From assembly GCF_018987265.1 (NCBI RefSeq), contig NZ_CP076854.1, positions 1,488,001-1,552,000 of the forward strand: a stretch of 64,000 nucleotides of DNA, written 5' to 3'. Positions 44,926 to 63,138 of the stretch are shown piece after piece (the stretch's first letter is position 1; each line of letters starts with the position of its first letter). Made by a program: the position numbers and the translations under genes. The notes under the pieces are model-generated. The model ran no database searches, was not told the origin of the DNA, and saw only the letters and a list, made by a program, of their open reading frames with translations. The DNA is from Rhizobium sp. WYJ-E13. Its GTDB lineage: Bacteria > Pseudomonadota > Alphaproteobacteria > Rhizobiales > Rhizobiaceae.

Positions 44926-45394
44926 CATGCAATGAAACCGCAGTTTCCCATCATGAATTACACTCGCGATTGCTCATGCCCTTGCGCGTGAGCACAGCCG
45001 AACCTCGAAACGTTGGCCCGATCTGATCATTCAGAACTGCAGCGAGGCGCTCACGAAAAACAGATCCCACATGTTGGAATCGGCGGTGCTCTTGAAGATG
45101 TGGGAATATCCAAGGTCGGCGCTGACCGTCCCGCCCGAAAGCCGGCTTCCAATTGTCCAGGGCAATGTCACCGCTTTCAATGCCGAAACGCGCTTCCTCA
45201 AATACATGGCCGTAATCGATGCCGGACAGGGACGCAACTCGCCCAGCCTGTCGGCGAGCATCCTATTGCCTGCCCGTGGCTGCGTGCGCCAGACGATTTC
45301 GTTGCGCGTGAAGACACCGTTATTAAAGTTTGAGTTGACCGTTTCCGATGGCGAGGCGACATTCGCAACCTGTGGCAAGGCAGGAGGAAAAACG
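44926..45394. other. Interval with a possible outer-membrane protein remnant
   Basis: No intact gene. A minus-strand frame (45031-45462) ends SADLGYSHIF and, later, FFVSASLQF, as barrel proteins end; a second frame in the same DNA reads SLSGIDYGHVFEEARFG, also protein-like. This could be a frameshifted 3' fragment of an outer-membrane protein gene. I cannot name the family. Confidence 0.3.
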
Positions 45395-46929: not shown

Positions 46930-47778
46930 ATGAAGACCTTCAAATTTGCGCTTGCGATCGGGGCAACGGTCGCATCGCTGTCTTTCGCCTCCACGCCGAC
47001 ACGCGCTGCTCCGGACCTGGAGCTCTGGCGTCTGGATTGCGGCGATGTCGTCGTCAAGGATTTGTCGATGTTTTCGGACACCTTCGCTTCTGCCGGCAAG
47101 AAAGGCGTGCTGACGGATAGCTGCTACGTGATCCGCCACGGCGGTGACTACCTGCTATGGGACACCGGGCTTCCTGCCGGCCTCATCGGCAAGGCACCGG
47201 ATCAGGATGCACAGATCGGCGTCTCGCTCAGAAGCGACATCCCGACCCAGTTGAAAGAGATCGGCATCAAACCGGAGCAAATCGCAACCGTCGGCATCAG
47301 CCACAACCATTTCGACCATCTCGGACAGGCCGCGACCTTTTCGAAAGCCACGCTGATGATCGGTGCTGCCGATTGGCAGACTTTTCACGACAATCCTCTG
47401 CCCTTCGCGGTCGTACCGGATCTCGTCAAACCCTGGCTCGATGGCAAGGCGAAACTCGACCTCGTGAGCGGCGACCGTGACGTCTTCGGCGACGGTTCCG
47501 TGATGATGCTGTCGATGCCCGGTCATACGAAAGGGGAAGCCGCCCTCCTGGTAAAGCTTGCAAAGATGGGGCCGGTCCTGCTTTCCGGCGATGTCGTGCA
47601 TTTCGAGGATAATCTCGTCACTCGCGGCGTGCCGGGTTTCAATGAAAACCGTGCCGACACGCTCGCATCGATGGAACGGCTCCAGGCGATTGCAGCCGGG
47701 CTGAACGCAACGCTCGTCATCCAGCACGATCCTACCCATATCTCCCGCCTGCCGGCCTTCCCCGAAAGCGCAAGATAA
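46930..47778 (+). CDS. Secreted metallo-beta-lactamase-fold hydrolase, AHL-lactonase-like
   Basis: A 282-residue protein with a signal peptide (about 1-26, ending TPTRAA). MBL metal motif SHNHFDHLG (HxHxDH), later ligands in MPGHTKGE, LLSGDVVHF and VIQHDPTH: the full two-metal set. LWDTGLPAG and the spacing resemble the N-acyl homoserine lactonase group (AiiA/AttM-like), but export to the periplasm is unusual for it, so another lactone or ester may be the substrate. AAGGAG precedes the ATG. Divergent from an AraC regulator. Confidence 0.82.
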   Translation: MKTFKFALAIGATVASLSFASTPTRAAPDLELWRLDCGDVVVKDLSMFSDTFASAGKKGVLTDSCYVIRHGGDYLLWDTGLPAGLIGKAPDQDAQIGVSLRSDIPTQLKEIGIKPEQIATVGISHNHFDHLGQAATFSKATLMIGAADWQTFHDNPLPFAVVPDLVKPWLDGKAKLDLVSGDRDVFGDGSVMMLSMPGHTKGEAALLVKLAKMGPVLLSGDVVHFEDNLVTRGVPGFNENRADTLASMERLQAIAAGLNATLVIQHDPTHISRLPAFPESAR

Positions 47779-47813
47779 GCGACACGGTTGCCATTGGCAC
47801 AAGGTCACAATTT

Positions 47814-47837
47814 CCACCGGGGTTAAGAAGCCGGTGG
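47814..47837. terminator. Hairpin between convergent genes
   Basis: CCACCGG and CCGGTGG (7 bases) around a 10-base loop, between the convergent hydrolase and dehydrogenase genes. No T-run, so terminator function is only suggested by position. Confidence 0.3.
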
Positions 47838-47916
47838 CAGCAACCCGGTTGAACTCGTCAAGATCGTTCCCCCGTGTCTCGTCCGTCGGCAGTGTCGCGC
47901 AATTGCTCCCACGATT

Positions 47917-48795
47917 TCACTGCAGTTCCGTGATCAGACTGTAGAGACGTGCGACCGAGGCATCATCGTCTCGCTCCATTCCCGCAGCGGCCGTCATCAG
48001 AAATAGCTGCAGGGCCTCTGCTGCCATTGGCGTCGGGAACCGCAATTCTCGGGCGATGTCGCCGACGATGCCGAGATCCTTGGTGAATATGCCGACGGCG
48101 CTGCGCGGCGCATAGTCCTCTTCAAGCACATGGGGGATGCGGTTTTCAAACATCCAGGAATTACCGGCCGACTTGGTGATGACCTCGTAGACTTTCGTCA
48201 GATCCAGACCAAGCCTCTTGGCAAAGGAGATGGCCTCACATGCCGCAGCAATATGCACGCCCGCCAGAAGCTGGTTGACGATCTTGAACGATGTTCCGAT
48301 GCCCGCCTCGTCACCGAGCGTGTAGACGGTTTCGGCGACCATATCGAGTGCCGGTTTTGCCGCTGCGAAAGCCTGCGGAGATCCGGACGCCATGACCGTC
48401 AGCCTGCCTTCCGCCGCCTTCGCGGCTCCCCCGCTGATCGGCGCGTCGAGATAGTGAAACCCTTTTTCCTCAACCCTTGCGGCGAAGTCTCGCGCATCCT
48501 TCGGCGCGAGCGTAGCACAGGCGACGATCACCGCGCCTTTGCTCAAATCCTTGACGATGCCATCAGGGCCAAAAATCACCTCTTCGGTCTGTTTCGCGTT
48601 GACGAGAACCAGGAAGACAACGTCTGCGTCCCGAACCACGCTCGCCAACGTGTCGCCGGTCCTTCCTCCTGCGGCCTCGAAGGCGGCCCGGACGTCTGCT
48701 CGAATATCGTAACCGCGTATGGAGGCTCCATGCGCCAGAGCCGATCTGGCCATGCCCATTCCCATCGAGCCAAGGCCCACAACAGCAATATCCAT
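47917..48795 (-). CDS. 3-hydroxyisobutyrate-dehydrogenase-family oxidoreductase, L-threonate dehydrogenase-like
   Basis: A 292-residue NAD-dependent dehydrogenase. N-terminal Rossmann motif VVGLGSMGMGMARSA, substrate motif DAPISGGAAKAAEGRLTVMA, catalytic Lys in GTSFKIVNQLLAGVH. The CATLAP segment and overall similarity suggest the L-threonate dehydrogenase (LtnD) group. The usual partners of that pathway (LtnE-type kinase, aldolase, isomerase) are not adjacent, so the substrate is uncertain; other beta-hydroxyacids are possible. Monocistronic here. Confidence 0.82.
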   Translation of the reverse strand: MDIAVVGLGSMGMGMARSALAHGASIRGYDIRADVRAAFEAAGGRTGDTLASVVRDADVVFLVLVNAKQTEEVIFGPDGIVKDLSKGAVIVACATLAPKDARDFAARVEEKGFHYLDAPISGGAAKAAEGRLTVMASGSPQAFAAAKPALDMVAETVYTLGDEAGIGTSFKIVNQLLAGVHIAAACEAISFAKRLGLDLTKVYEVITKSAGNSWMFENRIPHVLEEDYAPRSAVGIFTKDLGIVGDIARELRFPTPMAAEALQLFLMTAAAGMERDDDASVARLYSLITELQ

Positions 48796-49099
48796 TGAAT
48801 CATCCCTCCGTATTCTGACGTTCGAATTTCCCGCCGAATGCCTGAACCCGGTGGCTTGCAGTCAGAACTGGGAAACCCGAACCGCGATCACTGAAAACCA
48901 GCTGCATGCCGCTGCCGCAACGGCCACTTTGATGAGTGGTATCAGATCGATTGCCGAACGGTCGACGGAAAAAACCAGCGAATAGGAGGGGCATTTCCCC
49001 GCATCCGGGCTGCGCACGTCATTGTCGATATCATGCGAGGGCAGCGAGCATCGAACGGAGGCCGAGGCGCTCCATTGCGTGCCGCCGATGAGCATCCGA
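48796..49099. other. Intergenic region, no gene seen
   Basis: About 300 bases between the dehydrogenase start and the 3' end of the giant gene pair. It must contain the dehydrogenase promoter. No dyad or gene that I can support. Confidence 0.4.
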
Positions 49100-52000
49100 T
49101 CAGGTGCCTGTTTCGAACAGCGCGGCATAAACCAGCCGTTCTTCGATCACCCGGCGATTGAAGACTGCATTGCCGCGCCGTTCCGGAACGGTGCTGTCGG
49201 TGTAATAGCGTTCGAATTCACGCAGCATCAGCCGCGCCGGTTTGCCGCCGGTATTGGGCAGCGTCAGCGAAACCGACCATATTTCCGGATCGAGGAAGCC
49301 CGGGAGCATGATGGTAGGGTCAAGCACTGCAACTGTTGCTGCCGAAAGGTCCAGCGACGACGACAGCGAGATGGCGCTGCCTGCACGCGGCTCCACCGTC
49401 CGCGCGCCAGGTGCGGCAGCGGCCGGAAGGGCAAAGATGCCGCCCGGATTGATGCCTGGCGTCACCAACGGGTTGTCGCTCGCGTCGCCACCAACAATCG
49501 CGCTCGCCAGGACGCTTTGGTCGCGCCAGGCCAGATCGGAATCGATCTCGGGTTCACGGGTTTGAAGCACCAGTTCGACGCGGTTGCGTCCGGTCTCGTG
49601 GACGCCGCCGATGAACGATATATTTGTGTACTCCGAATCGACCGGAAACTTCATCGGTCCAAAATGAGGCACCCTGCCCGTGAGCTTGAGGCTGATCTGG
49701 TTGCCGGTCATTTGCAGGCTGGCCTTGCGTCTGGGCAGAACCTGGGCGAATTCGGTCATCACCACTTTTGAAATCTTGGCGGATGACAACGCGTTGGGTT
49801 GATAGCGCACCAGCGCAAGCCGCACAAAGGGCGTATAGGCAATGCCGGGATCGAGTTCGATATCGCAATACCACAGGTGCCGGTCTGCATCCCAGTGGAC
49901 CCGATGGCCGATCACTTCGACAAAGGTGCCGTCCGGATGTTCCTGAAGCTTGAGCTGCTCGGACGCCACCCGTGCTGCGAAATCGCTGGCACTTGTCTTG
50001 GTCTTCGGCAGATCGGTATCCCAGATCGGGTCCAGGCCCCATTGGGTCACGACCGGCTGCATCTTGGCCGGAATGTCTGTGAAGCGGGCATTCTCGCCAA
50101 AGATGACGACGCCGAGAAGTTCACCGTCTCCGGAGCTGAACCAGGGGCGGTCGAGCCAGACGCGTAGGCCGTTGCCGATGCGGGTAATCTGCTGAGCGCT
50201 ACCGGAACCTGTGCGGGTCCAGCGGAACGTCGGCACGACATAAAGCACACGCGGATCATCGGGTGGCGCACTGGCGAGTACGAGTGTCTGGCCGGTATCG
50301 CCTGCCGGATCGGTCAACACAGGAGCACCCGCATCGTCGTCAGCGGCAAGCTTGACGGGTGCGCCGGTGGCGATCGGGCCAAGGCGGCTGACAAGATCGC
50401 GCACGGCATAGAGCGACGGCGGCAGATATTCGCGGAAGCGCGTCGTGGCGCGCAGGCGATAATGGATCAACCGGAATTTCGTGTCGCCGAACTCATGGCG
50501 GTTCGCCGGGGCTCGCGGCCGAGCCGGATCATGGATCTGGCTATTGACGGCATCATCGAGATTGAATTCATTGTCGTGGTTCTCAGCAAGCTGGATCTCG
50601 CCGAGCTGGCCCTTGCCGACAATCCGCTCCGGTGCGGGCTTGCTGAGGTCATCGACCCATTCGTGCCAATCCGCCTCGATCTCGAACTTGCCGGTCGAAG
50701 GCCCGTGCAGGCGAACGATACGGGAATGCAGATCGGTGAATTTCGAGCCCGGTTCTCGAAAGTTGGAGAACGCAATGAGTTCGGGCAGGCAGACCGGCTG
50801 CTGCGTGGCATGCACCATCACCAGATTGCGGAACGGCGTCAGGAGCCAATTGGCACCCATGACGGCCATGCCGGAAACGAATTTGCGCTCCGCCGTGCTC
50901 AGCGTCCAACGGGGCACACCGAACGTTTCGATCAAATGGGGATCCGCAAAACTCGAATAGACGAGCCGCACGATCCGTCCCTTGGCAACAAAAAACGTCA
51001 GCGTTCTCTCGTTCTCGTCCCATTTCGGCGCGCCGTCGTCAAGGAATGCTTCCTTGCAGGGCAATTCCGTCAGATCCGCCTTTCTCTCCGCAACAATCAG
51101 GCGGAAACCGCGGCTGTGCGGCCAATCCTCCTGGTTCGCCACCATGAGCACCAGTTCCTGATTGGGAGCGCGGCGCACGACGCAGCTTGGCCCGAGGATC
51201 ATTTCGGTGGCGACGCCAGGCAGCGCGTGTCCGGCCGCGGCCCGCAGCGCGATACCGGCCGCCGCCGCGTCCGGCAGATAAGGGGTTTCAACCGTTGCTT
51301 CACGATGAATGACATATTGGCCGGCGGAAAGGCGGTCGCCTTCGGGATTGTCCGGCCCGGGCAGTGCCGGCGGCACGGCGTTGGTCTTGGCAATTTCGGT
51401 AAGTGAGGTCGGTGTGATCAGTTCGACCTGTGCGCCGGCTTCGGCATCGTAAAGCGTACCTGCTTCGCGAGCCGCGATTTCGTAGCCTTTCTTGATGGTG
51501 AGGGGGTCGGCAAAGAAGGGGTCGAAAAGACCGTGCTGCTCGCATTGCTGCTGCGAGGATTTCGGCGGCACCAAGTGACGCTCGTTGCGTGCTCTATATT
51601 CGAAGTCCTGCGATTCCGGCTTGGCGATGGCCGCGGAAAAATCCGCCGTGCCGAGATAGGCAGCCGTATCGCTGTCGAAGTTGCTGCGGATCACCATGCG
51701 TTCGAGAGATTCACCTTCGCTCACCCGGTGACGCTGCACCAGCGCCGGCGGATCGATGGGCTCGAAGCGCCAGTAACCGACGGCATCGGTTGCCTGTTCG
51801 AGTTCACCAAGGGTCGGATCGTCCTTGTCGAGGCTGTTACCGGCGCTGTCGACGAGACGAGCCCGGAAACGATAGAGCTGGCCGAACCGCAGCTTCGGCA
51901 ATGAGCCCCTGGCGGCCTTGAACTGGGCGGCGATCCCATTGCCGTCGGCTGCCTCGTCGGTGATCACGGCGTGCTGCTCACTTTGCAGCTGCGTATCCTT

Positions 52001-53809
52001 GACCGGAGCGGATCGCAGCACCAGGCCCGGACGCGGGGCGCTGAGGCTCCAGCCGGTCCAGCGAAACAGCGACTCGTGCAGATAATGATCGTCGGGATTT
52101 ACTCCGTCGCTCGCAGTGCTTGTTGTCGACGCGCCTGAGACATAACCTTCGTCTGGAGGTAGAGGCAGCGACGTACCGGATTTGATCAACCGGTAGTCGC
52201 CGACGCGGGCGCAAAGCGAGAACCATTTGCCCGGGGTAACCTCATCCTTGACGGGAGAGACATCGACCCGGAAGCCGCGTATCACGTCCTCTGCAAAAAA
52301 CACGATTCTGTTGCCATTGGCAGATTCGACAGCCTGATTTTTCAGGGCGGCGGCGGCGGCATCGGCGGCAACTTGTGCCGCCCGGCCGTGACGAGACACG
52401 CCGAGGCCGCCGGAGCGCAAGGCAGCAACAGCCTGCTTGTCGCCGGTCGTATAGGTCACCTCGCCATCGATCTGGCGCAGGCTGAGACTTTTGCCGACAA
52501 GGTTCTGTGCGCTGAGAGTGAAGCCCACCGTCTTGTGCACGGCCCCATCCGGATCGACCTGATAGACGTCGAACAGGCCGGGCTTGTCCTTTTCAACCAG
52601 ACCCCAGTTATCGTCGGAGGCCTCGAGCCTGAGCAGGCCGCGCTGGAAGTCACTGCTGCGCGGCCGGGTGAAGAAGCGCTCCTTGTCGTCCTGCCAGGCC
52701 GTGCGTGGCGTGGTATCGTCATTCGGGTCGTGGCCGCCCGGCAGACTGACCAGCAGCGACATCAGCCCCTTGCCAATGCCGCCGCCGGCGGCGATGGCCT
52801 GGTCGAATGGCTCATCGTCTTCGATCACGCAATCGATCAAAAGCCCGAGCGCACGCAGCAGGGACGGATAGTCTGCATACGAAGCGACGATCCGGTGAAA
52901 ATCGAAATCGGGCACTTTCGGCGGTGCCGGAATATCGGCATAGGACGGACGGCGCATGGCGCGCTCGGCCGCACTCGGCGGTTCACGGTTGTAAAAACGA
53001 TTGGCTTGATAGTAGGCATATTCGTCCGCGCTGGCGAACTGATCCATGAGCGAAGCGTCCGGCGCGCCGACAAGCGGCGTGTTGGGTCCGCCGGGCCGTG
53101 GGTTGAACCAGTCGGCCGGCAGGGTACGCCGCACGACTTGCCCGGCCACTGAAGGACTTCCGGTTTCCTCTGCATCGATCGCGGCAACCGGGGTGCGATA
53201 TTGTCCGCCCGGTCCGAAGACCGCGTCATTCAGGAAGCTTTCGATCGATCTTCCGTTTTCGGCCTCGCCGAAAAAGCGCGAAAATCCGGGCAAGGCAACT
53301 TCGATCGGGCGATCGCCCAGATTGAATTTCTGCGTTCGCGTGCCAATGCCGGTCAGCATGTCCTTGAGGTCGGGATGTGCGTCTTTCCAGGGCAGCAAGG
53401 TCGGATGGTTCGAGGCCGCCTGCACCGCAAGCCGCCCATAGTGGCGTCGGAGGAATTTGAGCACGTTGCGGACCTGGAACGAACGCAGATTGACTTTGCT
53501 CATGTCCTTGAACTGGAAACCCGCCACCGGGGTCGCGGTACCGAACAGTTGCTTCCAAAGATCGGAATCGCCCAGATTCAAGGGTCTCAGGGGAACCTCG
53601 GCAGGCCCTACCCTAAGCCCGAATTTCGCATCCGCCATCAGCGCCGGCCAGTCGAGAAACTCCGGAAACGCCTTGAGAACCTGCTCGTCGGCTGCCTGCG
53701 GCCGAAGCCTTGGAGAAACGGATATCGTCACCCGGCGCCTGCCGGCATTCGGCCCGTCGGTAAAACGCCCATGAGGCAGAACCGTCCAAAGAAGTGTCTG
53801 GGTTGCCAT
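49100..53809 (-). CDS. Giant protein of unknown function (about 1569 aa)
   Basis: A single open frame of about 1569 codons. The ATG at 53809 is preceded by GGGGAGG, and the frame starts MATQTLLWTVLPHGRFTDGP; no signal peptide and no membrane segment are seen, so it is probably cytosolic or exported by a non-Sec route. Composition is beta-rich, acidic and proline-containing with few cysteines; recognisable landmarks are EFLDWPALMADAKFG near the N-terminus, HEFGDTKFRLIHYRLRATTR in the last third, and RGNAVFNRRVIEERLVYAAL at the end. I recognise no domain. It is the second gene of a two-gene operon, 16 bases after the other giant gene, and shares its codon use, so the two products probably work together. 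Confidence 0.85.
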   Translation of the reverse strand: MATQTLLWTVLPHGRFTDGPNAGRRRVTISVSPRLRPQAADEQVLKAFPEFLDWPALMADAKFGLRVGPAEVPLRPLNLGDSDLWKQLFGTATPVAGFQFKDMSKVNLRSFQVRNVLKFLRRHYGRLAVQAASNHPTLLPWKDAHPDLKDMLTGIGTRTQKFNLGDRPIEVALPGFSRFFGEAENGRSIESFLNDAVFGPGGQYRTPVAAIDAEETGSPSVAGQVVRRTLPADWFNPRPGGPNTPLVGAPDASLMDQFASADEYAYYQANRFYNREPPSAAERAMRRPSYADIPAPPKVPDFDFHRIVASYADYPSLLRALGLLIDCVIEDDEPFDQAIAAGGGIGKGLMSLLVSLPGGHDPNDDTTPRTAWQDDKERFFTRPRSSDFQRGLLRLEASDDNWGLVEKDKPGLFDVYQVDPDGAVHKTVGFTLSAQNLVGKSLSLRQIDGEVTYTTGDKQAVAALRSGGLGVSRHGRAAQVAADAAAAALKNQAVESANGNRIVFFAEDVIRGFRVDVSPVKDEVTPGKWFSLCARVGDYRLIKSGTSLPLPPDEGYVSGASTTSTASDGVNPDDHYLHESLFRWTGWSLSAPRPGLVLRSAPVKDTQLQSEQHAVITDEAADGNGIAAQFKAARGSLPKLRFGQLYRFRARLVDSAGNSLDKDDPTLGELEQATDAVGYWRFEPIDPPALVQRHRVSEGESLERMVIRSNFDSDTAAYLGTADFSAAIAKPESQDFEYRARNERHLVPPKSSQQQCEQHGLFDPFFADPLTIKKGYEIAAREAGTLYDAEAGAQVELITPTSLTEIAKTNAVPPALPGPDNPEGDRLSAGQYVIHREATVETPYLPDAAAAGIALRAAAGHALPGVATEMILGPSCVVRRAPNQELVLMVANQEDWPHSRGFRLIVAERKADLTELPCKEAFLDDGAPKWDENERTLTFFVAKGRIVRLVYSSFADPHLIETFGVPRWTLSTAERKFVSGMAVMGANWLLTPFRNLVMVHATQQPVCLPELIAFSNFREPGSKFTDLHSRIVRLHGPSTGKFEIEADWHEWVDDLSKPAPERIVGKGQLGEIQLAENHDNEFNLDDAVNSQIHDPARPRAPANRHEFGDTKFRLIHYRLRATTRFREYLPPSLYAVRDLVSRLGPIATGAPVKLAADDDAGAPVLTDPAGDTGQTLVLASAPPDDPRVLYVVPTFRWTRTGSGSAQQITRIGNGLRVWLDRPWFSSGDGELLGVVIFGENARFTDIPAKMQPVVTQWGLDPIWDTDLPKTKTSASDFAARVASEQLKLQEHPDGTFVEVIGHRVHWDADRHLWYCDIELDPGIAYTPFVRLALVRYQPNALSSAKISKVVMTEFAQVLPRRKASLQMTGNQISLKLTGRVPHFGPMKFPVDSEYTNISFIGGVHETGRNRVELVLQTREPEIDSDLAWRDQSVLASAIVGGDASDNPLVTPGINPGGIFALPAAAAPGARTVEPRAGSAISLSSSLDLSAATVAVLDPTIMLPGFLDPEIWSVSLTLPNTGGKPARLMLREFERYYTDSTVPERRGNAVFNRRVIEERLVYAALFETGT

Positions 53810-53825
53810 CGATTTTCCTCCCCGC

Positions 53826-56800
53826 TCAGGCAAAAGCTTCGCAATGGTCGCGCCATGCATATTCAGTATCGGCATCGATCTGGCCGAGTTCCTGATCCAG
53901 CGGGACAGTGGGATTAAAGCCGAGCATTTCGCGCAGGCTCGGATCGCCATTGGCGCCCGAGAATTTGCGTTCGCAGGTTATCGTTACGCTACCGGAGAAA
54001 ATGAACACCGATATCTCGATCGTCAGTTGCGCCTTGCCGACGCATTTGCCCGACTGGAACTCGTAACGAAGCTCCAGATAGAGTTCGAGCGACGCCGTGA
54101 TGATGCCGAGCACGCTCACATGGCCGCCGAGCCGGAAATAGCCGGTCAGCGAGGCGGCGTCCTGCTCCATACGGAAATAAATCCCGGCCATCACATGCAC
54201 GCCACCCGAGGCGACACCGAGATCGATGGAAATGCTGGCGCCGAACTCGAACGACGCTTCGAGGATCTGGACGCCGTGCGGATCGATGGTGACTCCGAAG
54301 AAGCCGCCGCCGCCGAACATGTAGACCGTAAGGCAGAACGGCTGCTCACGGGTGCAGAAATTGAAGCGGACGCTGAGCGGCTGACCGATGAAGGGCACGG
54401 TAAACCCGGCGCCAAGCCCCAGATTGCTGAGACTCATCACCCCGATGCTGATGCTGGGCAATGTGACCGAGAAGCCGGCATCGATGCCCTTGGTCGAGAT
54501 ATCGAGATAGGGCGGGTCGCTGAAACCATCGAGTGGGATGAGGTCGCGCAAGGTTTCGACAAAACTTAACGGACCGACGAACTTGATGTCGTTGAGCAGC
54601 ACATCGACATCCATCTTGGCGGCACTGTCGATGGAAAATTCAATTTTCTCGAAGTTCAGCTCGAGAAAGCTGGCCGGCGCAATCAGCACGAGATCAAAAT
54701 GCTTGAGGCCGCAGGAGACACTGATCTTGGGTGCCGAAGCACCGTTTTTCTTGACCTTGGCTTCCACGGCAATCAGGAAACCATGTTTATCGTTGGCTCG
54801 AAACAGCGCCTTGTCAGGCGTGTGTGCCGTTCCCGGCAGCCACCAGCTGTCAATTTCCGGGTTCCAGTCGAAGCGAATTGTCAGCTCTTCGCCGACAAGC
54901 CCCTCTATCAGTTTGAGCAGATCGGCAATGCCACCCAGGACCTCTTCGACGGCGGTCATCGCGTCGACAATGACCTTGCGCGGGGCACCGTCAAGCAGAT
55001 CGAAGCCGCCCACGGTCGTCTTGAGCGGACCGATCGCAGCAGCCACCGCCTCGACCCGGGTTTTCAGCGTCGCCGGATCGGAGAACAGGGCTTCGATCTG
55101 GCTTGGATCGCCAACGATGGCATCAAGCGCATCGAACAGCGCCTTTCCCTGTGCCACGAGCACGGGCAGGGTCTGAAGGTCTTCAAGAACCGCGTCGAGC
55201 TGGGCAACAAAGCCGAGAAGGCTCTGGCGGATACCCGATGGCAGATTGACGCCGCCGATATTCGCGTTAGCCGCGGTCTTGAGGTCGGCTAGGTGCGAAC
55301 GGGCCGTCGCGATGCTCGCCGGGATATTGGTGAGATCCGGAGCTGTGGCGGCTCCGTTGACGACGAGCGAGGCGAGAGCCTGCAATTTGACTGCGACATC
55401 GTTGAGCGCCGTCATCAACTGGTTGGCGGCTGCCTCTACAGGGGCAATTTGCGCGGCAGCATAGGCCTTTGCCTGCGCAAGCAGGTCGTTCAGCGACGCC
55501 TTGAAGGCCGACATTGCAGCATTGCCGATGCTGCTTGGCTGCGAAGCGATGCCTTCAATGAACGCATAGAGACGCACCAGGCCGTTGATGAAGGATTCGA
55601 CCTGGGTGCTGGCTTCGCTGCCGAACTTCGGAATTTTTTCCGGCGAGTCGACGAGATTTGCAACGGCCTCGATGACTTCGCCGAGCGGAATGCAGCCGAA
55701 GAGCAAAGGCAAAGGCAGATCGCTGATCGACGTCGGGAAGCCACCGCCGGCAGGCACTTTGCCGTCGATAAACTGGCCGACATCTCCCATGACCGGACCG
55801 GCAAAACGGGACAAGGCGTTCGGCTTCAAATTGGGCTGGACAAAACCGCCCGACCGATCGCCCTGCGACGAAAAGTCGAGCTTGGCCATATTGGGATCGT
55901 TCTTTACGTCGGCAAAGATCTCGCCGACATTGGTGTCGAAGCCCTTCTTGAGATAGAACGCGTTCCAGACCAGGGCGTTCGATTTGGTGCTGCCACTGAG
56001 ATGGGCGAGCGCACCGATGCGAGCCCGTGTCTCGGAGACCTTGGGGAAAAATACGGGCCGGTTCAGCCCGTTGCTGAAATTGCGCAGTGTCTGGTTGTTG
56101 GCCTCAACCTCGCCGCCAAAATCGATCTCCTCGACCTGGACCGATGTATCGCCGGCCTTGACGCTCGTGGCCATCGCAACACGCTGCAGATTGAGCGTCG
56201 CGGTATGTTTGGCGCCGGCATTGGCATAGTCCTGGTTCGCGATGGCCGCATTGGTCTCCGCAGCGGCGAAATCGGGAACGAGCTTGGTGCTGCCCGGGTT
56301 TAGAATCCGCGGACATGCCAGGGTGTTGTCCATGAAAATCATCGGCAGATCAAAGGCCACGCGCCGCCCATCGAGATCGGTTGCGACGAACTGGAATTTG
56401 AATGGCTGGCCATTGACGTTGGGCCAGAACATAAGCTGCCCGAATCCGGCGACGTCCGAAGCCGTTGGCTGATCGAGATTTGGCGTTACCTGCGTGAGAA
56501 CCCGTATGCTGGTGAATGGGAACTGGCGGGAATAGAACACATTGCCCGCATTGTTTCGCAGCTGATCTGCACCAGGCTCCACATAATTGCGCTCGCGTTC
56601 TCGTACGATGAGAAACAGGCGTTGACGCAAATATGCAGCATTGCCCGGCATCTGCTCGATGACCGGTTTGCCCTCACCGTCCTTGGCGCCGTTGTGGAAC
56701 TTGCGCTCGCTGACTTTGACCAGGGAAACACGATGGCCAAAGGGGAACAGGAAGCCGCGATAAACGACGCGCACATAGTGGTCTCGCCCCATGCTGGCAC

Positions 56801-58154
56801 GATGACCCCACTCCTCGACAGAAAGACCCGACGGATCCCAGTTGCCGCGTGATTCAAGCCAGCCGCCAAGTGCCGTCAGCATCATCAGATTGGTATCGAC
56901 GGGCTGTGGCGTGTAGTTCGACACCGAGAAGTTCGATGAAAGATGCGCAATCTGGAACCGATCGTAATCGTCGAGCGGCATACGGAAGGGAGCGGTGCTC
57001 GGCGCGGGCAGTGCGGCGGCAACAGGGACGGGCCAGCCGCTTTGCATGGACTTGGTCGAACCTTCGCCGCTCAGCGCCCAAATGGCCCGCACGGTGCGGT
57101 TGGGATCGTCATAGGGCGGCTCGATCGTCTTGCCGTCGGCATCAGGAGCGACGAGCCTGGAATGCCAGAGTTCGGTGCGGCTTGTCGCCGGGGAGGTTGC
57201 AGGAGCTGTGGCGTGGCGCCATTTTTCCGCTGCATGAGGCGACAGGATCAGCCGCCACGGCAACTCGATCGACGTCGTTAGCGCCGACGGCAACACAGGA
57301 CGAGGCGCGCCCGGCCTGGACGGCACGACAACATCGAGATCGAAACGATCCCGTGGCAACGCCTTAAGCGCGGTGCCACCCGAAAACTGGCGCGCTCTCA
57401 ATGTTGCGAAATCACTTTGGACGGCGGCAATCTGAGTGCTTCTGATGGCGAAACTGGCCAAGGCGGCGCGTTTTGCGGCCGGCAAGGCGGCCAATCTGCG
57501 GCTATCGAATAGATCGGTCGTGGTGAATGCGCGCCGCCCCGCCCCGCGAGGTCCCGCATTTGCCGCCACTTTTAGACTAAGAGCCTGACAGGCGTCGAGA
57601 ACGCCCTCCAAAGTATAGGGAACATCAAAGCCATCCGGCACCTGGAACACCAGTCGCGATTCCCCGGCAATGCGTGCCCGGATCGGAGGCGTGCGCGGAG
57701 TTTCGGAACCACCCGCGGGGTCTTGCTTGACCTGTTCGTCAGGCCGCTGCGCGGCAGGATTTTGAGTTCCGGAGGGCCGGGTCTCGAAAAACGTTTCCTC
57801 GGTGATCGACTGGGGCGGAAAATGCAAGATTATGTTGGCAGCTCCCGAAGCCTGCTTTTTCAGTCGGGGCGGAGTTCCTGCAACGATCGTCAGATTGCGC
57901 GTCTCGATACGCAGCGCAACCAGGTCATCGGGTCTGACAACCGCATCGCCCGGCCGGTTTTGCTCAAAGAGATTGCCGACAAAATCGAGCGGGCGCGGGA
58001 CGAATATCGTGCCCAAATCAATACCGGTCACGGGGCCGACGATTGTGCCTGGCGCACCCGTCAGCACGCTCGTGCTGGCGTCCAGGCCTTCCGCACGTAT
58101 TTGAGTGAGAGACGGAGACTGCGCTCCCGCCCTGATCGGTCGTTTTACCATCAT
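53826..58154 (-). CDS. Giant protein of unknown function (about 1442 aa)
   Basis: One open frame from ATG 58154 (a second ATG follows at once; GGGGAGGG lies upstream). No signal peptide. Three parts are visible: an N-terminal mixed region (about 1-810, with LPWRLILSPHAAEKW, YVRVVYRGFLFPFGHRVSLV and other beta-type segments); a helical Ala-rich region (about 820-1085, for example SLNDLLAQAKAYAAAQIAPV); and a glycine-rich, strand-rich C-terminal part (about 1090-1400, for example VYMFGGGGFFGVTIDPHGVQ and SLELYLELRYEF) that alternates polar and apolar residues as amphipathic strands do. No catalytic motif is seen. It precedes the other giant gene by 16 bases. Structural, fibre- or assembly-type function is a guess. 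Confidence 0.85.
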   Translation of the reverse strand: MMVKRPIRAGAQSPSLTQIRAEGLDASTSVLTGAPGTIVGPVTGIDLGTIFVPRPLDFVGNLFEQNRPGDAVVRPDDLVALRIETRNLTIVAGTPPRLKKQASGAANIILHFPPQSITEETFFETRPSGTQNPAAQRPDEQVKQDPAGGSETPRTPPIRARIAGESRLVFQVPDGFDVPYTLEGVLDACQALSLKVAANAGPRGAGRRAFTTTDLFDSRRLAALPAAKRAALASFAIRSTQIAAVQSDFATLRARQFSGGTALKALPRDRFDLDVVVPSRPGAPRPVLPSALTTSIELPWRLILSPHAAEKWRHATAPATSPATSRTELWHSRLVAPDADGKTIEPPYDDPNRTVRAIWALSGEGSTKSMQSGWPVPVAAALPAPSTAPFRMPLDDYDRFQIAHLSSNFSVSNYTPQPVDTNLMMLTALGGWLESRGNWDPSGLSVEEWGHRASMGRDHYVRVVYRGFLFPFGHRVSLVKVSERKFHNGAKDGEGKPVIEQMPGNAAYLRQRLFLIVRERERNYVEPGADQLRNNAGNVFYSRQFPFTSIRVLTQVTPNLDQPTASDVAGFGQLMFWPNVNGQPFKFQFVATDLDGRRVAFDLPMIFMDNTLACPRILNPGSTKLVPDFAAAETNAAIANQDYANAGAKHTATLNLQRVAMATSVKAGDTSVQVEEIDFGGEVEANNQTLRNFSNGLNRPVFFPKVSETRARIGALAHLSGSTKSNALVWNAFYLKKGFDTNVGEIFADVKNDPNMAKLDFSSQGDRSGGFVQPNLKPNALSRFAGPVMGDVGQFIDGKVPAGGGFPTSISDLPLPLLFGCIPLGEVIEAVANLVDSPEKIPKFGSEASTQVESFINGLVRLYAFIEGIASQPSSIGNAAMSAFKASLNDLLAQAKAYAAAQIAPVEAAANQLMTALNDVAVKLQALASLVVNGAATAPDLTNIPASIATARSHLADLKTAANANIGGVNLPSGIRQSLLGFVAQLDAVLEDLQTLPVLVAQGKALFDALDAIVGDPSQIEALFSDPATLKTRVEAVAAAIGPLKTTVGGFDLLDGAPRKVIVDAMTAVEEVLGGIADLLKLIEGLVGEELTIRFDWNPEIDSWWLPGTAHTPDKALFRANDKHGFLIAVEAKVKKNGASAPKISVSCGLKHFDLVLIAPASFLELNFEKIEFSIDSAAKMDVDVLLNDIKFVGPLSFVETLRDLIPLDGFSDPPYLDISTKGIDAGFSVTLPSISIGVMSLSNLGLGAGFTVPFIGQPLSVRFNFCTREQPFCLTVYMFGGGGFFGVTIDPHGVQILEASFEFGASISIDLGVASGGVHVMAGIYFRMEQDAASLTGYFRLGGHVSVLGIITASLELYLELRYEFQSGKCVGKAQLTIEISVFIFSGSVTITCERKFSGANGDPSLREMLGFNPTVPLDQELGQIDADTEYAWRDHCEAFA

Positions 58155-58497
58155 CCGCCCTCCCCGCAGTGATAGAATAACATATGCCCGGGCAGTTGCG
58201 CCCGGAGCCACCAATTCACGAAAAAAGAAAGACAATTCGACCACAAAGAAAAAGATAGGAAAGAATAGTGACCTTCTCGCCAAACAGCAGCGAGAAGGCG
58301 AATGTTCTATTTCTTTTTCTATTGCCGCCCTGGCCAACAACATAAATCCGACGGCAATCTACACCAAATATTAGCATAATTGCGAATGCGCTTTGGCTAG
58401 CGGTAACGAATTCCTATCAACGACAACTGAACCAGCGAGAATGTTTCAATTTGGCTCGCAACAGCAACGGCTTTTAAGGCCTTGCAACGAGCTCGCA
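58155..58497. promoter_or_regulatory. AT-rich upstream region of the giant-gene operon
   Basis: About 340 bases, clearly richer in A and T (58210-58390) than its surroundings, directly upstream of the giant operon on the minus strand. It should hold the operon promoter. I cannot assign -35 and -10 boxes with confidence. Frames here are low-complexity (Phe-rich) and unconvincing. Confidence 0.4.
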
Positions 58498-58659
58498 TCA
58501 CAACCTGACGCTCACACTTCCGCCGCGTGAGACACCGAGCACGACACCTTTGTCGTGGGCCCATAGATCAAGGAGCAATTGATCTTCAACATCGAGCATG
58601 CACGTCGGATGGCGATCGTTGAAGAACCTTCGACAGCAGATCACCGCTTCATCCTTCAT
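58498..58659 (-). CDS. Small ORF coupled to the sensor kinase stop codon
   Basis: A 53-codon frame starting MKDEAVICCRRFFNDRHPTC whose ATG overlaps the kinase stop (ATGA at 58656-58659) in the same direction. It ends GVVLGVSRGGSVSVRL. There is no membrane segment; a CC pair lies near the N-terminus. The overlap is of the kind used throughout this window for real coupled genes, but no homologue is known to me and a decayed gene end is possible. A 7-base hairpin (58540-58557) lies inside it. Confidence 0.4.
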   Translation of the reverse strand: MKDEAVICCRRFFNDRHPTCMLDVEDQLLLDLWAHDKGVVLGVSRGGSVSVRL

Positions 58660-59966
58660 TTCGGTATCGCGACAACAACGCTGAGGCCAGCCGGATTGCG
58701 CTGCCGCAGCTCCAATGTGCCTTGGTGGGCGTGAACGATATCTGCGACGATCGATAGACCAAGGCCAAAGCCGCCTCCAGCACGAGACTGGTCCGACTTG
58801 AAGAACGGCTCAAGGACCCGCTCTCTAAATTCCTGGGGAATACCGGGGCCGTCATCTTCAACGATGATCAGTACGGTTTCCGGCCGCTCTGCCATCGTCA
58901 CCTCGACCTTGCCCGCAAATTTAACGGCGTTGTCGCAAAGATTGGTGACCGCGCGCGTGATGGAAAGCGGCCGGCACCTGGCCAGAAGCCGGTTCGGCCC
59001 AGTGTATCGGACGGCGTGGCCGATATCGGCAAACTCGCTGCAGACCGTCTGCAGGATGCTCGCGACGTCTACGAGCTCGATCATCTCGGTCGCATAGTCG
59101 TTTCTAAGATAGTTCAGGCTCTCCACCAGAAGGCTCTCGATCCGATCGATGTCGGAAAGCAGGGCGTCTTTCTGACCGCCGTCGCCCATCCGCTCCACAC
59201 GCAGTTTCAGTCGCGTCAGCGGCGTGCGCAGATCGTGGCCGATGCCGCGCAGCATCCGGGTCCGGCCTTCGATCATCAGACGGATGCGCCGACGCATGCC
59301 GTTTAGCGCCCGGGCCAATGCAACGATCTCGATCGTTCCCCTCTCCTCGAAAACAGGCGAACCGGTGGTGATATCGGAAACCGCCGCCGCATGGGCAATG
59401 CGCTGTATGGGTTCCGTGATCGCTCTGATTGCGAATATGAAGAAAAAACCGATCAAGACGAAAAAAGCGACGAAGTAATAGGGGCCGCGTCCCAGGAACG
59501 CGCTGCTCAGCATGGAATCCGGAAAACCCGACGTGATGACGATCGTGCCGTCGTCGACACGCGCGGCAATCACCCGCCGGTCATCGAGGAAGGTCTGCCA
59601 ACCGCCGATGGGCGGCTCGTTGTCTGGTGGAAACAACCGCGCGGTGACGATGTCAAGAAAGCTCTGGTGGCTCGAAGATTGTACAAACCGGCTCGCGGTC
59701 GCCGTCGGCGTGAGTTCGATGTCCCAGCCGGCGTGACGTGCGTTGGCGAGGATGATCTGCCGGTCTTCAGGCGAGGCGGGTCCGAGAAGCTCGGCGATGG
59801 CGTTCAGCTTTTCGGCGATATTCTCGAGATCCGGGGCGGCAAGATCTTCCCTGGCCCAGCGCTCCACCGCATCGCCCATGGTGATGATCGTCACCAGCGC
59901 AACCAGAATGATGATGGTGATCTGGCCGCGGATCGTCATCGTGACACGATGCAGGCGCTTAAACAT
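58656..59966 (-). CDS. Sensor histidine kinase (EnvZ/AdeS-like)
   Basis: A 436-residue inner-membrane kinase. First membrane segment about 13-33, a periplasmic region of about 130 residues, second segment about 180-202 (YYFVAFFVLIGFFFIFAIRA), HAMP domain, HisKA box LRGIGHDLRTPLTRLK, N-box VTNLCDNAVKFAG, G1 DDGPGIPQ, F-box region EPFFKSDQS and G2 GGFGLGLSIV. ATG 59966 overlaps the regulator gene by 8 bases; the frame extends to 60116 but inside the regulator gene. Probable control of the divergent MipA and RND efflux genes. Confidence 0.92.
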   Translation of the reverse strand: MFKRLHRVTMTIRGQITIIILVALVTIITMGDAVERWAREDLAAPDLENIAEKLNAIAELLGPASPEDRQIILANARHAGWDIELTPTATASRFVQSSSHQSFLDIVTARLFPPDNEPPIGGWQTFLDDRRVIAARVDDGTIVITSGFPDSMLSSAFLGRGPYYFVAFFVLIGFFFIFAIRAITEPIQRIAHAAAVSDITTGSPVFEERGTIEIVALARALNGMRRRIRLMIEGRTRMLRGIGHDLRTPLTRLKLRVERMGDGGQKDALLSDIDRIESLLVESLNYLRNDYATEMIELVDVASILQTVCSEFADIGHAVRYTGPNRLLARCRPLSITRAVTNLCDNAVKFAGKVEVTMAERPETVLIIVEDDGPGIPQEFRERVLEPFFKSDQSRAGGGFGLGLSIVADIVHAHQGTLELRQRNPAGLSVVVAIPK

Positions 59967-60708
59967 CGGCCTCTTCCACCCGCGCGGTAAACACGTAACC
60001 GCCAAGCCGGACCGTCTTGATGAGGAGCGGATCGCGGGGATCCTTCTCGATCTTCTGTCTGAGCCGGCTGATATGCACGTCGATGCTGCGCTCGATCGGA
60101 CCGGCGAGCCCCGCATGCGTCACGGCAAGCAGCTGCTCGCGCGTCAGAACCCGGCCGGCATTGCGGCAAAAGGCAAGGAGCAGATCGAACTCGTGGGTGG
60201 TCATGGCAATCCTGGCCTGGGCCGGATCGTGGACCTGGCGCCGGGCCGGATCAATCCGCCAGCCCTCGAAACGCAACAATCGCGGCGCAGGTCTCGCCTC
60301 CCGCTGTGCCGACAAGCCCGACCGGCGCAGGAGGCCTTTGATCCGGGCCAGGAGCTCACGCAGAACGAAGGGTTTGGTGACGTAGTCGTCCGCACCGATC
60401 TCCAGCCCAACGATCCTGTCGATGTCGGTGCTCAAGGATGTCAGCATCAGGATTGGGATGCCGCCACCTGCGCGCAGGCGCCGGCAGAGACTGAAACCGT
60501 CTTCGCCCGGCAGCATGACATCGAGGACAACGAGATCGAAGGGCATCGCCCGCATCTTCGCATCCATCGCTGCGCCGTCGCCTGCGAGCTCCGCATCCAT
60601 ACCCTGCTCGAGGAGACTGTCCCGCAGCATTTCGGCAATCTGACGATCGTCCTCGACGATCAGGATCCTCGGCCGTTCGACGGCCGCTCGTGCGCGCTCA
60701 TCAACCAA
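59959..60708 (-). CDS. OmpR-family response regulator
   Basis: A 249-residue regulator: ILIVEDDRQIAEML acidic pocket, phospho-acceptor Asp in DLVVLDVMLPGEDG, Lys in DDYVTKPFVLRELLARIKGL, winged helix with MTTHEFDLLLAFCRNAGRVL and SIDVHISRLRQKIE. It has a 12-residue N-terminal extension before the receiver. First gene of the two-component operon, divergent from the MipA/OmpV and RND genes (about 225 bases to the MipA start), a layout common for efflux control. Confidence 0.93.
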   Translation of the reverse strand: MVDERARAAVERPRILIVEDDRQIAEMLRDSLLEQGMDAELAGDGAAMDAKMRAMPFDLVVLDVMLPGEDGFSLCRRLRAGGGIPILMLTSLSTDIDRIVGLEIGADDYVTKPFVLRELLARIKGLLRRSGLSAQREARPAPRLLRFEGWRIDPARRQVHDPAQARIAMTTHEFDLLLAFCRNAGRVLTREQLLAVTHAGLAGPIERSIDVHISRLRQKIEKDPRDPLLIKTVRLGGYVFTARVEEADV

Positions 60709-60934
60709 TCACGCCACCTCCGTTCTTCGGCTCCATCCTTACCATGAAGGGCGAGGCCTTCCTCTCCCGCGATTTATGAAGAATTGTTTCCATGGCGCAG
60801 TGCGGCCCGCCCAAGCAGAAACAATTCTTAACAACATCCAACACGCAATGCCCGTCGTGCATGGCACTGCTGAGGCGTGGCGTGCTTCCAGGTCGGTTTC
60901 GGGGGATGCGCGCGAAGTCAACCTCGGAGCATTC

Positions 60935-61792
60935 ATGTCTGCCTCTAACAAACTGGCCGTCGATCGGTCCCGGCTGCTTTCCATCGCCGTGGCGTCGCTG
61001 TTCTTATCGCCCTTTGCCGCGCAAGCCGCCGACTTCACAAGCGACGGGCAGACCGCGCAGGAACCGCCACCGCCGGACCCGGAGCGTTTCGGCCCGGTCC
61101 GCCAGGCGTTGCACGATTGGCACGTCGTCATCGGCGCCGGCGCTGCCTTCAAACCGAAATATGAGGGAAGCGACGAGTTTGAAGTCTCGCCGTTCCCGTT
61201 CATATCGGCCGAATTCTTCGACCGGATCACCATCGATCCAAGCGGCATCGAGATAAACGCCTTCGAGAAGGATGCTTTCCGGTTCGACGTCAATGTCGGC
61301 TACGACTCGGGCCGTAACGAAGACGATGCCGACGCGCTGCGCGGCATGGGCGATATCGATTTCGGCGTGACGGTCGGCGGCAAAGGCACCTACACGTTCG
61401 GGCCTGCCAATCTCTTCGTCTCGGTCGACAAGACGATCGGCGGAAGCGACGGCCTGCTGGCAACCGCCGGCGCAGCAATCTCGCAGCCCCTGTCGGAGCA
61501 TCTCATCCTCGGCGCCGAGGCCTCTGCCACCTTTGCGGACGACAACTACATGGAAGCCTATTTCGGTGTCGACGCGGCCCAATCGGCCCGTTCCGGCCAT
61601 CCGCAATACAAGGCCGGGGCTGGGATCAAGAGCGTCGATCTCTCCGCCTCGGCCACCTACCTGATCAACGAGAACTGGGTGGTCAGGGGTGAGCAAGGCG
61701 TGGGCTTCCTGGTCGGAGACGCGGCAGACAGCCCAATCGTCAAGGAAAAGATCCAGTCGAAAACCATGCTGATGCTGGGTTACCGGTTCTGA
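60935..61792 (+). CDS. MipA/OmpV family outer-membrane protein
   Basis: A 285-residue barrel protein with a signal peptide (about 1-31, ending AAQAAD). DWHVVIGAGAAFKPKYEGSD is the MipA/OmpV start motif; later VGDAADSPI is shared with the paralogue at 14240-15064; it ends in the aromatic MLMLGYRF. ATG 60935 follows GGAG and places the signal peptide at the N-terminus; an upstream frame to 60776 is not supported. It is followed 100 bases later by an RND efflux pair and lies divergent from a two-component system. Confidence 0.88.
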   Translation: MSASNKLAVDRSRLLSIAVASLFLSPFAAQAADFTSDGQTAQEPPPPDPERFGPVRQALHDWHVVIGAGAAFKPKYEGSDEFEVSPFPFISAEFFDRITIDPSGIEINAFEKDAFRFDVNVGYDSGRNEDDADALRGMGDIDFGVTVGGKGTYTFGPANLFVSVDKTIGGSDGLLATAGAAISQPLSEHLILGAEASATFADDNYMEAYFGVDAAQSARSGHPQYKAGAGIKSVDLSASATYLINENWVVRGEQGVGFLVGDAADSPIVKEKIQSKTMLMLGYRF

Positions 61793-61893
61793 CCTCGGCC
61801 GGTCAAAGCATCCTGTTCAAAACCCGAAGGGTCGCCGACGCGGCGGCCCTGAACATCCGGCAATCAAACAAGAATCGCGCAGGGAATGAATAG

Positions 61894-63138
61894 ATGACCT
61901 CCTTCATGCCGCTCTCTCGCACGCTCTGCCTGTCGCAGGGCGACCGACCGTTCCAAAACTCCAGAACGGGTCGCCTGGTATCGATCGCCCTGCTGTCTGC
62001 GACCGCGGGGCTGCCGATCGACGGTTTCGCCGCTGACATGGAGGCGCCGAAAGTGTCGGTCATCGCTGCGAGAGCCCAGGTTCTCGAACAGAGCGTTTCC
62101 GTCGTCGGCACGATCGTTGCGATGGAAACGACGCTCGTCAATACCGATCTGTCCGGAGCCCGGATAGTCTCGATCGCCGCCGAAGAAGGCGATCTTGTCA
62201 GCCGCGGACAAGTGCTCGCGACACTGGATACATCAAGGATCGATGTCGAGCTTATGCAAAACGACGCGCAGGCGGCGAGCGCGGCAGCACAACTCGGGCA
62301 GGCCTCAAGCGCGCTCGACAATGCCTTGATTTCGCAGGAGGAAGCAGAGGCAGATCTTACGCGCGCGCAAAAGCTCGTTCCCAAGGGGTTGATGTCGCAA
62401 GAAGCGCTTGAGCAGCGACAAAAGGCGCTCGCGCGCGCAGAGGTGACGGTGCGAGCCAGCGGGCAGGCTGTCCAGTCGGCAGAAGCAGCCGCCAAAACTG
62501 TCGCAGCGGAGCGCAAGGATATTGAATTGCGACTGAGCTATGCGAGAATTGTCGCGCCTGTCGCCGGCCGGATCATCAACCGGTCCGCCAAGGTCGGTGC
62601 AACCGCTTCCTCATCCAGCGAGCAGCTCTTCACCATCGCAAATGACGACCAGCTCGAACTGGAAGCGGAAATCCCGCAGGCCCAGTTCGATGTCGTACCC
62701 GTCGGCGCCGTCGCTCATGTTTTTCTCGGCGACGGTCGTGATGGTTTGACAGGCATCGTCCGTTTCGTCGCGCCGGCGCTTGCCGACCGGACACGGCTCG
62801 GACGCGCCCGGATCACCCTGCCCGGTGGATTGGCGGCCCCGATCGGCGCCTTTGCCTCTGCACGTGTCGAGATCGGAAGCAGCAAAAGCATATTCCTGCC
62901 CGCCTCGGCGATTGCCGGTTCCGGCGAGGAACCGTCGATCAAGATCCTCAAGGACAACAGCATCGAACGAAAGCCGGTTTCGCTCGGTTTTCGCCAAGCC
63001 GGTTTCGTTCAGATCCGCTCCGGCGTCGACGAAGGCGACCTGGTGGTGACGAAGTCGGGCGGCTTCATGGAGGCCGGCGATCACGCAGTCCCGGTCGTGG
63101 TGCAGACCGATGCAGGCCCGGTTTCCGAAAGCAACTGA
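61894..63138 (+). CDS. RND efflux periplasmic adaptor (membrane fusion protein)
   Basis: A 414-residue adaptor. After an N-terminal export signal (about 28-47, LVSIALLSATAGLPIDGFAA) come the lipoyl half-motif ARIVSIAAEEGDLVSRGQVL, a long coiled-coil hairpin (about 110-210, AQAASAAAQLGQASSALDNA onward), the second lipoyl half (IVAPVAGRIINRSAKVGATA) and beta-barrel and membrane-proximal domains. It links the inner-membrane pump gene 10 bases downstream to an outer-membrane channel that is not encoded here. Confidence 0.9.
   Translation: MTSFMPLSRTLCLSQGDRPFQNSRTGRLVSIALLSATAGLPIDGFAADMEAPKVSVIAARAQVLEQSVSVVGTIVAMETTLVNTDLSGARIVSIAAEEGDLVSRGQVLATLDTSRIDVELMQNDAQAASAAAQLGQASSALDNALISQEEAEADLTRAQKLVPKGLMSQEALEQRQKALARAEVTVRASGQAVQSAEAAAKTVAAERKDIELRLSYARIVAPVAGRIINRSAKVGATASSSSEQLFTIANDDQLELEAEIPQAQFDVVPVGAVAHVFLGDGRDGLTGIVRFVAPALADRTRLGRARITLPGGLAAPIGAFASARVEIGSSKSIFLPASAIAGSGEEPSIKILKDNSIERKPVSLGFRQAGFVQIRSGVDEGDLVVTKSGGFMEAGDHAVPVVVQTDAGPVSESN

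Follow-up and report, generated by a model that had tools for sequence, protein, structure and literature searches.

A 64,000-nucleotide (nt) stretch of the Rhizobium sp. WYJ-E13 genome (contig NZ_CP076854.1, positions 1,488,001 to 1,552,000; hereafter the window) encodes, on the minus strand at 49100-58154, two giant genes that lie 16 nt apart and are here denoted B and A in their order of transcription. Comparison with the corresponding DNA of relatives indicates that this pair is one unit under strong purifying selection and that it moves horizontally as a single self-contained cassette. The function that we propose is more tentative: with a probability of about 37%, this mobile two-gene cassette would encode two giant proteins that act as one lipid- or membrane-engaging assembly. 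The evidence points in this direction but does not decide the matter.

B and A are intact, selected genes

An earlier note on this DNA had described two long, intact, adjacent frames of 1569 and 1442 codons on the same strand, each with a ribosome binding site, and both the coordinates and the 16-nt gap were confirmed (Table 1). B is preceded by GGGGAGGG and A, within the gap, by GGGGAGGA; both are purine-rich ribosome binding sites. An automatically generated list of open reading frames (ORFs) gives longer versions that start further upstream (1505 and 1616 amino acids [aa]). The shorter starts of both genes are preferred because alignments of homologues support them and, for B, because the DNA 5' of the gene aligns between loci as noncoding. 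The ratio of nonsynonymous to synonymous substitution rates (dN/dS), estimated by the Nei-Gojobori method (NG86), is 0.096 for B and 0.096 for A against the relative Rhizobium leguminosarum Vaf-46 (L001) and 0.090 and 0.100, respectively, against a second relative (L002). Because both frames have full-length homologues and dN/dS values of 0.090-0.100 against two relatives, they are more than chance frames, and the selection that the note had supposed is borne out at a dN/dS of about 0.1 for either gene. The window DNA is part of a 2.15-Mb contig in a genome of 6.9 Mb (3 contigs). Very long antisense frames, of up to 3075 aa (L017), lie over A and B in the relatives L009, L010, L017, L018, and L075 and form a trap for automatic gene calling.

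The two genes occur as a pair

The same note had asked whether homologues pair or stand alone. At 48 of the 50 loci read, the gene immediately after B, on the same strand, is another giant one, and in 42 it matches A by sequence; no clear case of a homologue standing alone was found. Within the close clade, A lies directly behind B on the same strand in all 24 relatives from genome contigs, and the spacing is -4 to 42 nt at the 19 loci measured (L009, L010, L015, L017, and L018 count in the pairing tally only). The same arrangement, a B-like frame and then a giant second gene, was likewise found at nine of nine distant loci (G056, G040, G073, G049, G618, G606, G632, G689, and G247, the last with B cut by the contig start), at five of six further matches fetched (G870, G774, G763, G922, and G816, the last with A cut by the contig end), at all five of another group fetched (G663, G1533, G1399, G986, and G1058), and in five of six plasmid records (three from Streptomyces, one from C. 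metallidurans CH34, and one from R. ruizarguesonis). The two exceptions are G916, a marginal match (E = 9e-4) with a 621-aa frame in which neither B nor A was recognized, and the Paraburkholderia sabiae plasmid L061, which holds fragments and where A was not looked for. Duplicates were counted once (Diaphorobacter L058 with G763, and G192 with L003, which have the same record length and gene layout); G982 and the plasmid matches H4, H6, H8, H10, H11, H13, and H14 are not among the loci read. At six loci (G073, G049, G247, G663, G1533, and G1399), the second gene has no direct BLASTP match to window A; these six genes are giant, occupy the same place, and are linked to one another. The distance matrices of A and B correlate with an r of 0.965 (171 pairs from 18 loci and the window; L014, with A truncated at the contig end, is excluded).

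Several copies are irregular. On the R. ruizarguesonis plasmid pRlX2 (L060:10082-14324), the annotation splits B into two consecutive ORFs and gives A as one full-length ORF; the split may reflect a frameshift or a sequencing error. A single in-frame TAG lies inside the match to the C-terminal part of B in L124 (G1058:C1:639125-640066), where the B-like and A-like frames are 1184 and 2314 aa long; this copy may be decayed. On the P. sabiae plasmid, the B-like match (L061:11565-14011) spans three small ORFs near transposase genes, and some 10 kb away is a gene whose annotation places it in the cytolethal distending toxin subunit B family.

The pair as a mobile cassette

Alignments of the window with L001 and with pRlX2 end at identical borders (Table 1), and the DNA common to L001 and L060 consists of the same block with only about 130 bp more upstream and 13 bp more downstream. 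What three Rhizobium backgrounds have in common is limited to the pair and some 300 bp upstream of it, and the recurrence of this one block therefore argues for a self-contained, horizontally moving cassette. The upstream part, which is conserved and noncoding, is probably a promoter or regulatory stretch. No transposase lies inside the cassette (49093-58459). When the 1176-position downstream flank was used to search for an empty site, 79 of 100 genomes of the genus matched; among the matches listed, the genome of origin aside, the alignments extend to position 693 at most, so that no empty junction was demonstrated.

The pair is sparsely distributed. B was present in 5 of 100 genomes of relatives and in 3 of 289 in a sample of the class, A in 5 of 398 in a sample of the phylum, and distant queries in 7 of 200, 4 of 349, and 4 of 347 genomes, the genomes of origin included in each case. 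Among 72,556 plasmid records, 14 matched (partial matches included), of which six are predicted to be conjugative; plasmids of Streptomyces carry the pair. It was seen in Pseudomonadota, in Streptomyces, and in metagenome-assembled genomes (MAGs) of two further groups. In the tree of B, Thiosocius, a gammaproteobacterium, groups with a Longimicrobiales MAG (support of 99/97) and Phyllobacterium groups with a Vicinamibacterales MAG at weaker support (85/67); the labels of these MAGs may stem from misbinned contigs.

Database searches recognize no known family

Protein database searches at E ≤ 0.001 yielded 1572 homologues of B and 310 of A; about 8000 candidates were scored for each, and the best 120 of each were listed. 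The homologues cover both proteins over their full length. The lower number for A may be due to the scoring of about 8000 candidates, to faster divergence of A, or to copies of B that occur without A. Among the 120 B and 120 A homologues listed, none carries a Pfam domain or a functional name; the names given are "hypothetical," "uncharacterized," or "coiled-coil domain-containing." The nearest named copy, from Rhizobium sp. BK316, is 97% identical, and the collinearity between BK316 and the window, at 95% identity, begins at 45324 and extends as far as the window end.

Comparison of window A and B with Pfam, NCBIfam, PHROGs, PADLOC, and the sequences in the PDB gave nothing above the cutoffs, consistent with the impression from the letters alone that no family could be named; the check for strong matches to known, unrelated families was negative for both proteins. 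The sole row for the window proteins was Baculo_PEP_C (E = 0.14), below the cutoff. Two distant B proteins likewise gave only subthreshold Pfam rows, the best again to Baculo_PEP_C (E = 1.1e-4). The Baculo_PEP_C rows lie on the helical part of B, as do nearly all of the 59 rows obtained with a B profile against PDB sequences, and the rows on this part were set aside as composition matches. The A profile matched no PDB sequence and had no domain in common with the B profile. Among 16 diverse relatives, no Pfam family was found, and NCBIfam returned a single row, to a phage tail tube model (E = 0.009, one member). No PADLOC defense model was matched by the four members compared. DUF6603, considered as a possible relative, did not turn up in the Pfam results. 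Among the literature matches listed, there is no paper on the pair.

Predicted structures and export signals

AlphaFold2 models were obtained for B residues 243-1442 and A residues 370-1569. The B model runs from a beta-rich part through an alanine-rich helical region to an amphipathic beta-meander, and the A model is largely beta, with sandwiches resembling immunoglobulin (Ig) and fibronectin type III (FN3) domains at its end. Both agree with the earlier note, which had read from the translations a helical, alanine-rich middle and an amphipathic, strand-rich C terminus in the first protein and a beta-rich second protein. The ten helices of B measure 9-29 residues, eight of them at least 17, and by a composition rule applied to 12 proteins the helix-prone span varies by clade, from 120 to 883 residues. 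The meander ranks with the best-conserved parts of the family. Both proteins have conserved C termini (blocks of 0.63-0.77), and the blocks with poor conservation lie inside the chains (B 268-292 and A 1445-1519); A is also modeled with low confidence at about 1443-1517.

One face of the meander is hydrophobic. The difference in hydrophobicity between faces averages 3.15 over the 13 C-terminal strands of B (range, 0.42-5.27), whereas 1000 random placements within B 243-810 never exceed 1.97. In 10 relatives scored in frame, including two from Streptomyces and leaving out L073, 11-13 of the 13 strands have their hydrophobic side on this same face.

A Kyte-Doolittle scan of window A and B found no hydrophobic N terminus in either protein. 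The highest mean hydropathy over 19 residues is 1.73 in B (817-835) and 1.52 in A (1488-1506), and therefore neither contains a clear membrane segment, as had been noted before. Among the proteins listed, a hydrophobic N terminus is missing from 117 of 120 B proteins, that of the window included, and from 119 of 120 A proteins, judged from the hydropathy of the first 45 residues of the 240 proteins and not by a trained predictor. A 19-residue stretch with a mean hydropathy of at least 1.9 occurs in 20 of the 120 B and 1 of the 120 A proteins.

Table 1. Features of the B/A cassette (window coordinates; protein parts as residue ranges)
Feature	Coordinates	Strand	Remarks
Self-contained cassette	49093..58459	-	blastn matches of the window to L001 and to L060 both span exactly 49093-58459
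Gene B	53826..58154	-	First transcribed; ATG 58154 to stop 53826; 1442 aa; full-length homologues; dN/dS 0.090-0.096
Gene A	49100..53809	-	Second transcribed; ATG 53809 to stop 49100; 1569 aa; full-length homologues; dN/dS 0.096-0.100
Spacer with ribosome binding site of A	53810..53825	-	16 nt, gcggggaggaaaatcg
Upstream noncoding conserved stretch	58155..58459	-	Within the block common to L001 and L060; aligns with indels
B 851-1085, ten alanine-rich helices	54900..55604	-	AlphaFold2 model
B 1090-1398, amphipathic antiparallel beta-meander	53961..54887	-	Model, conservation, face hydrophobicity, porin-like structural matches
A 1003-1569, Ig/FN3-like beta-sandwich region with long C-terminal beta-hairpin	49103..50803	-	

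A possible lipid- or membrane-engaging assembly

The reading that we tentatively prefer is that A and B, which have no recognizable export signals, would form a single assembly that works on lipid or membrane. The B helices and the hydrophobic side of the B sheet would hold lipid or insert into it, as in animal apoB, MTP, and lipovitellin, and A would serve as a scaffold or partner; storage of lipid, its movement, and membrane remodeling would all be compatible outcomes. In Foldseek searches with B, the first three ranks are MTP (6i7s, E = 2.3e-5), lipovitellin (1lsh, 4.3e-5), and MTP (8eoj, 1.9e-3), and honeybee vitellogenin (9enr, 0.083) and ApoB100 (9e9r, 0.2) appear within the first 50. 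The five alignments span 1094-1327 columns, and B as modeled resembles these large lipid transfer proteins in passing from beta structure through helices to an amphipathic beta-sheet. The pairing of the genes, the correlated distances of A and B, the low dN/dS, and the one-sided hydrophobicity of the meander also count in favor of this reading. Given the lack of a visible export signal, the occurrence in Streptomyces, a genus without an outer membrane, the conserved one-sided sheet next to alanine-rich helices, the strong purifying selection, and the conserved C termini, the fit to a protein that holds or shapes lipid is somewhat closer than that to a polymorphic toxin or an ordinary porin.

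Several observations weigh against this proposal. The lipid transfer protein matches have probabilities of 0.05-0.54, TM-scores by query length of 0.06-0.08 (0.06-0.07 for the first three ranks), and root mean square deviations of 30-35 Å (31-35 Å for those three), and a common three-dimensional fold is therefore not demonstrated. The 50 rows of the VIA-align comparison, which covered mainly A 1003-1569 and B 842-1400 and in which the meander resembles membrane barrels at least equally well, include none of these chains. The vitellogenin models of Pfam (Vitellogenin_N and LPD_N) gave no match at E up to 1 with window B and two distant B proteins, nor at E up to 0.01 with the 16 diverse members. 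Furthermore, the helices of B appear longer than is usual in the lipid transfer protein superfamily, and B differs from these proteins in lacking a signal peptide, in being bacterial, and in having a second giant protein beside it. The meander is modeled with a predicted local distance difference test score (pLDDT) of 38-83 by blocks of ten. When only modeled strands of at least 7 residues are compared, the meander (3.31, 14 strands) stands out less from the N-terminal part of B (1.96, 14 strands; Mann-Whitney P = 0.063) and from A (2.17, 26 strands; P = 0.035); in this fairer control the contrast is weaker, and the odds of the lipid reading were lowered slightly, from 40% to 37%. Finally, no recurring lipid-metabolism neighbor was seen in a flank comparison of the 24 close-clade loci.

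A far-reaching version of the proposal, which we regard as unlikely, is that of a bacterial counterpart of the animal lipoprotein systems: an apoB/lipovitellin-like B with clade-tuned helices and a lipid-holding sheet, and a constant Ig-like partner A, on a mobile cassette whose range would include at least Pseudomonadota and Actinomycetota, with Gemmatimonadota and Acidobacteriota as probable additions.

Alternative readings and known systems

The main rival, in our view rather unlikely, is a membrane-inserting pore or translocation complex that would remain cytoplasmic until released by lysis or another route, with the meander or helices of B entering the target membrane and A as the binding or shell part. 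The barrel matches of the meander fit this idea, as do peptidoglycan-degrading or protease genes near the pair at 4 of the 13 loci whose flanks were scanned in part for families: a lysozyme-M23 gene in G606 (L045:8536-11190), together with a trypsin-like gene that overlaps the 3' end of A by 4 nt; M23 genes in G073 (L034:16084-16494) and G1399 (L121:5704-6384); and an extensin-like_C gene in G247 (L048:7157-8941). (Within the close clade, family scanning covered the neighbors of the pair in the window.) Conversely, the 24 close-clade loci have no recurring third gene, the most widespread flank ORFs matching 7 other loci; the low dN/dS also speaks against this rival, and the internal position of the poorly conserved blocks, with both C termini conserved, is unlike a polymorphic toxin tip. 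Tc toxin complexes consist of very large neighboring proteins without Sec signals and thus resemble the pair in having several such proteins encoded side by side; however, the Tc chain XptA1 matches B only at Foldseek rank 42 (E = 0.18), and neither RHS cocoon, TcB-type, nor other toxin domains were found by Pfam in window A, window B, or the 16 diverse members. Consecutive very large genes are also a feature of Giant1-5 of Apilactobacillus kunkeei, which are described as extracellular surface proteins and are set apart from the pair by that description and by their size of 3,000 to 8,000 aa (PMC12863079).

That A and B instead assemble into a particle, shell, or storage body inside the cell, without any specific role in binding lipid, appears unlikely: it would account for the missing export signals, the pairing, the beta-sandwich chains in A, and a helical region whose clade-specific length is ruler-like, but the one-sided hydrophobic sheet exceeds the apparent need of a soluble shell (less so in the modeled-strand control), and no shell or capsid family was matched, apart from the tail tube row of one member of the distant set. 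Less probable still is a factor that is anchored at the surface or in the outer membrane and reaches it by a route other than Sec. VIA-align favors outer-membrane beta-barrels (CymA, OmpG, porins, LptD, and SprA) for the C-terminal part of B, A has Ig/FN3-like domains, and hydrophobic 19-residue stretches occur in the minority of listed proteins given above. However, the Sec-type N terminus of barrel proteins is absent by hydropathy from nearly all of them, B is a 1442-aa protein whose strands are not at its C-terminal end, and, where barrels have a beta-signal with a terminal aromatic residue, B ends in EAFA, 44 residues beyond its last modeled strand. Relatives moreover occur in Streptomyces, which has no outer membrane. 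A phage remnant or cargo with a tape-measure-like protein is very improbable. It could draw on four weak tape-measure matches of one distant B in PHROGs (best, phrog_167; E = 5e-4) and on the tail tube row (1 of 16 members), but window A and B match no PHROG, no relative of B is among 50,697 phage records, an alignment scan of IMG/VR viral contigs confirmed none of 26 pattern matches, and flank ORFs recur in no more than 7 other loci.

Neighboring genes

The neighbors of the pair in the window are ordinary: an EnvZ-like histidine kinase upstream, an OmpV-like protein, an RND adaptor, and an L-threonate dehydrogenase downstream (58656-63138 and 46930-48795), together with a metallohydrolase resembling N-acyl homoserine lactone (AHL) lactonases at 46930-47778. 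For EnvZ, OmpV, and the lactonase, the model scores fall short of the cutoffs. In G247, about 7 kb separate the pair from a downstream cluster that resembles the bacteriophage exclusion (BREX) defense system (BrxC/D, a subthreshold PglZ, and a methylase; L053:3502-19900).

Implications

More than 1500 homologues of B thus form a family in which the 120 listed have no functional name or Pfam domain and for which sequence comparison found no solved relative. To stay under strong purifying selection while moving as a unit between distant bacteria, a pair of about 9 kb must repay its cost. If the pore complex reading is true, the pair would represent a new class of released pore complexes. If the lipid-handling reading is true, bacteria would gain a type of large lipid assembly that, to our knowledge, has been described only from animals. 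Because the system consists of only two genes, these readings are directly testable.

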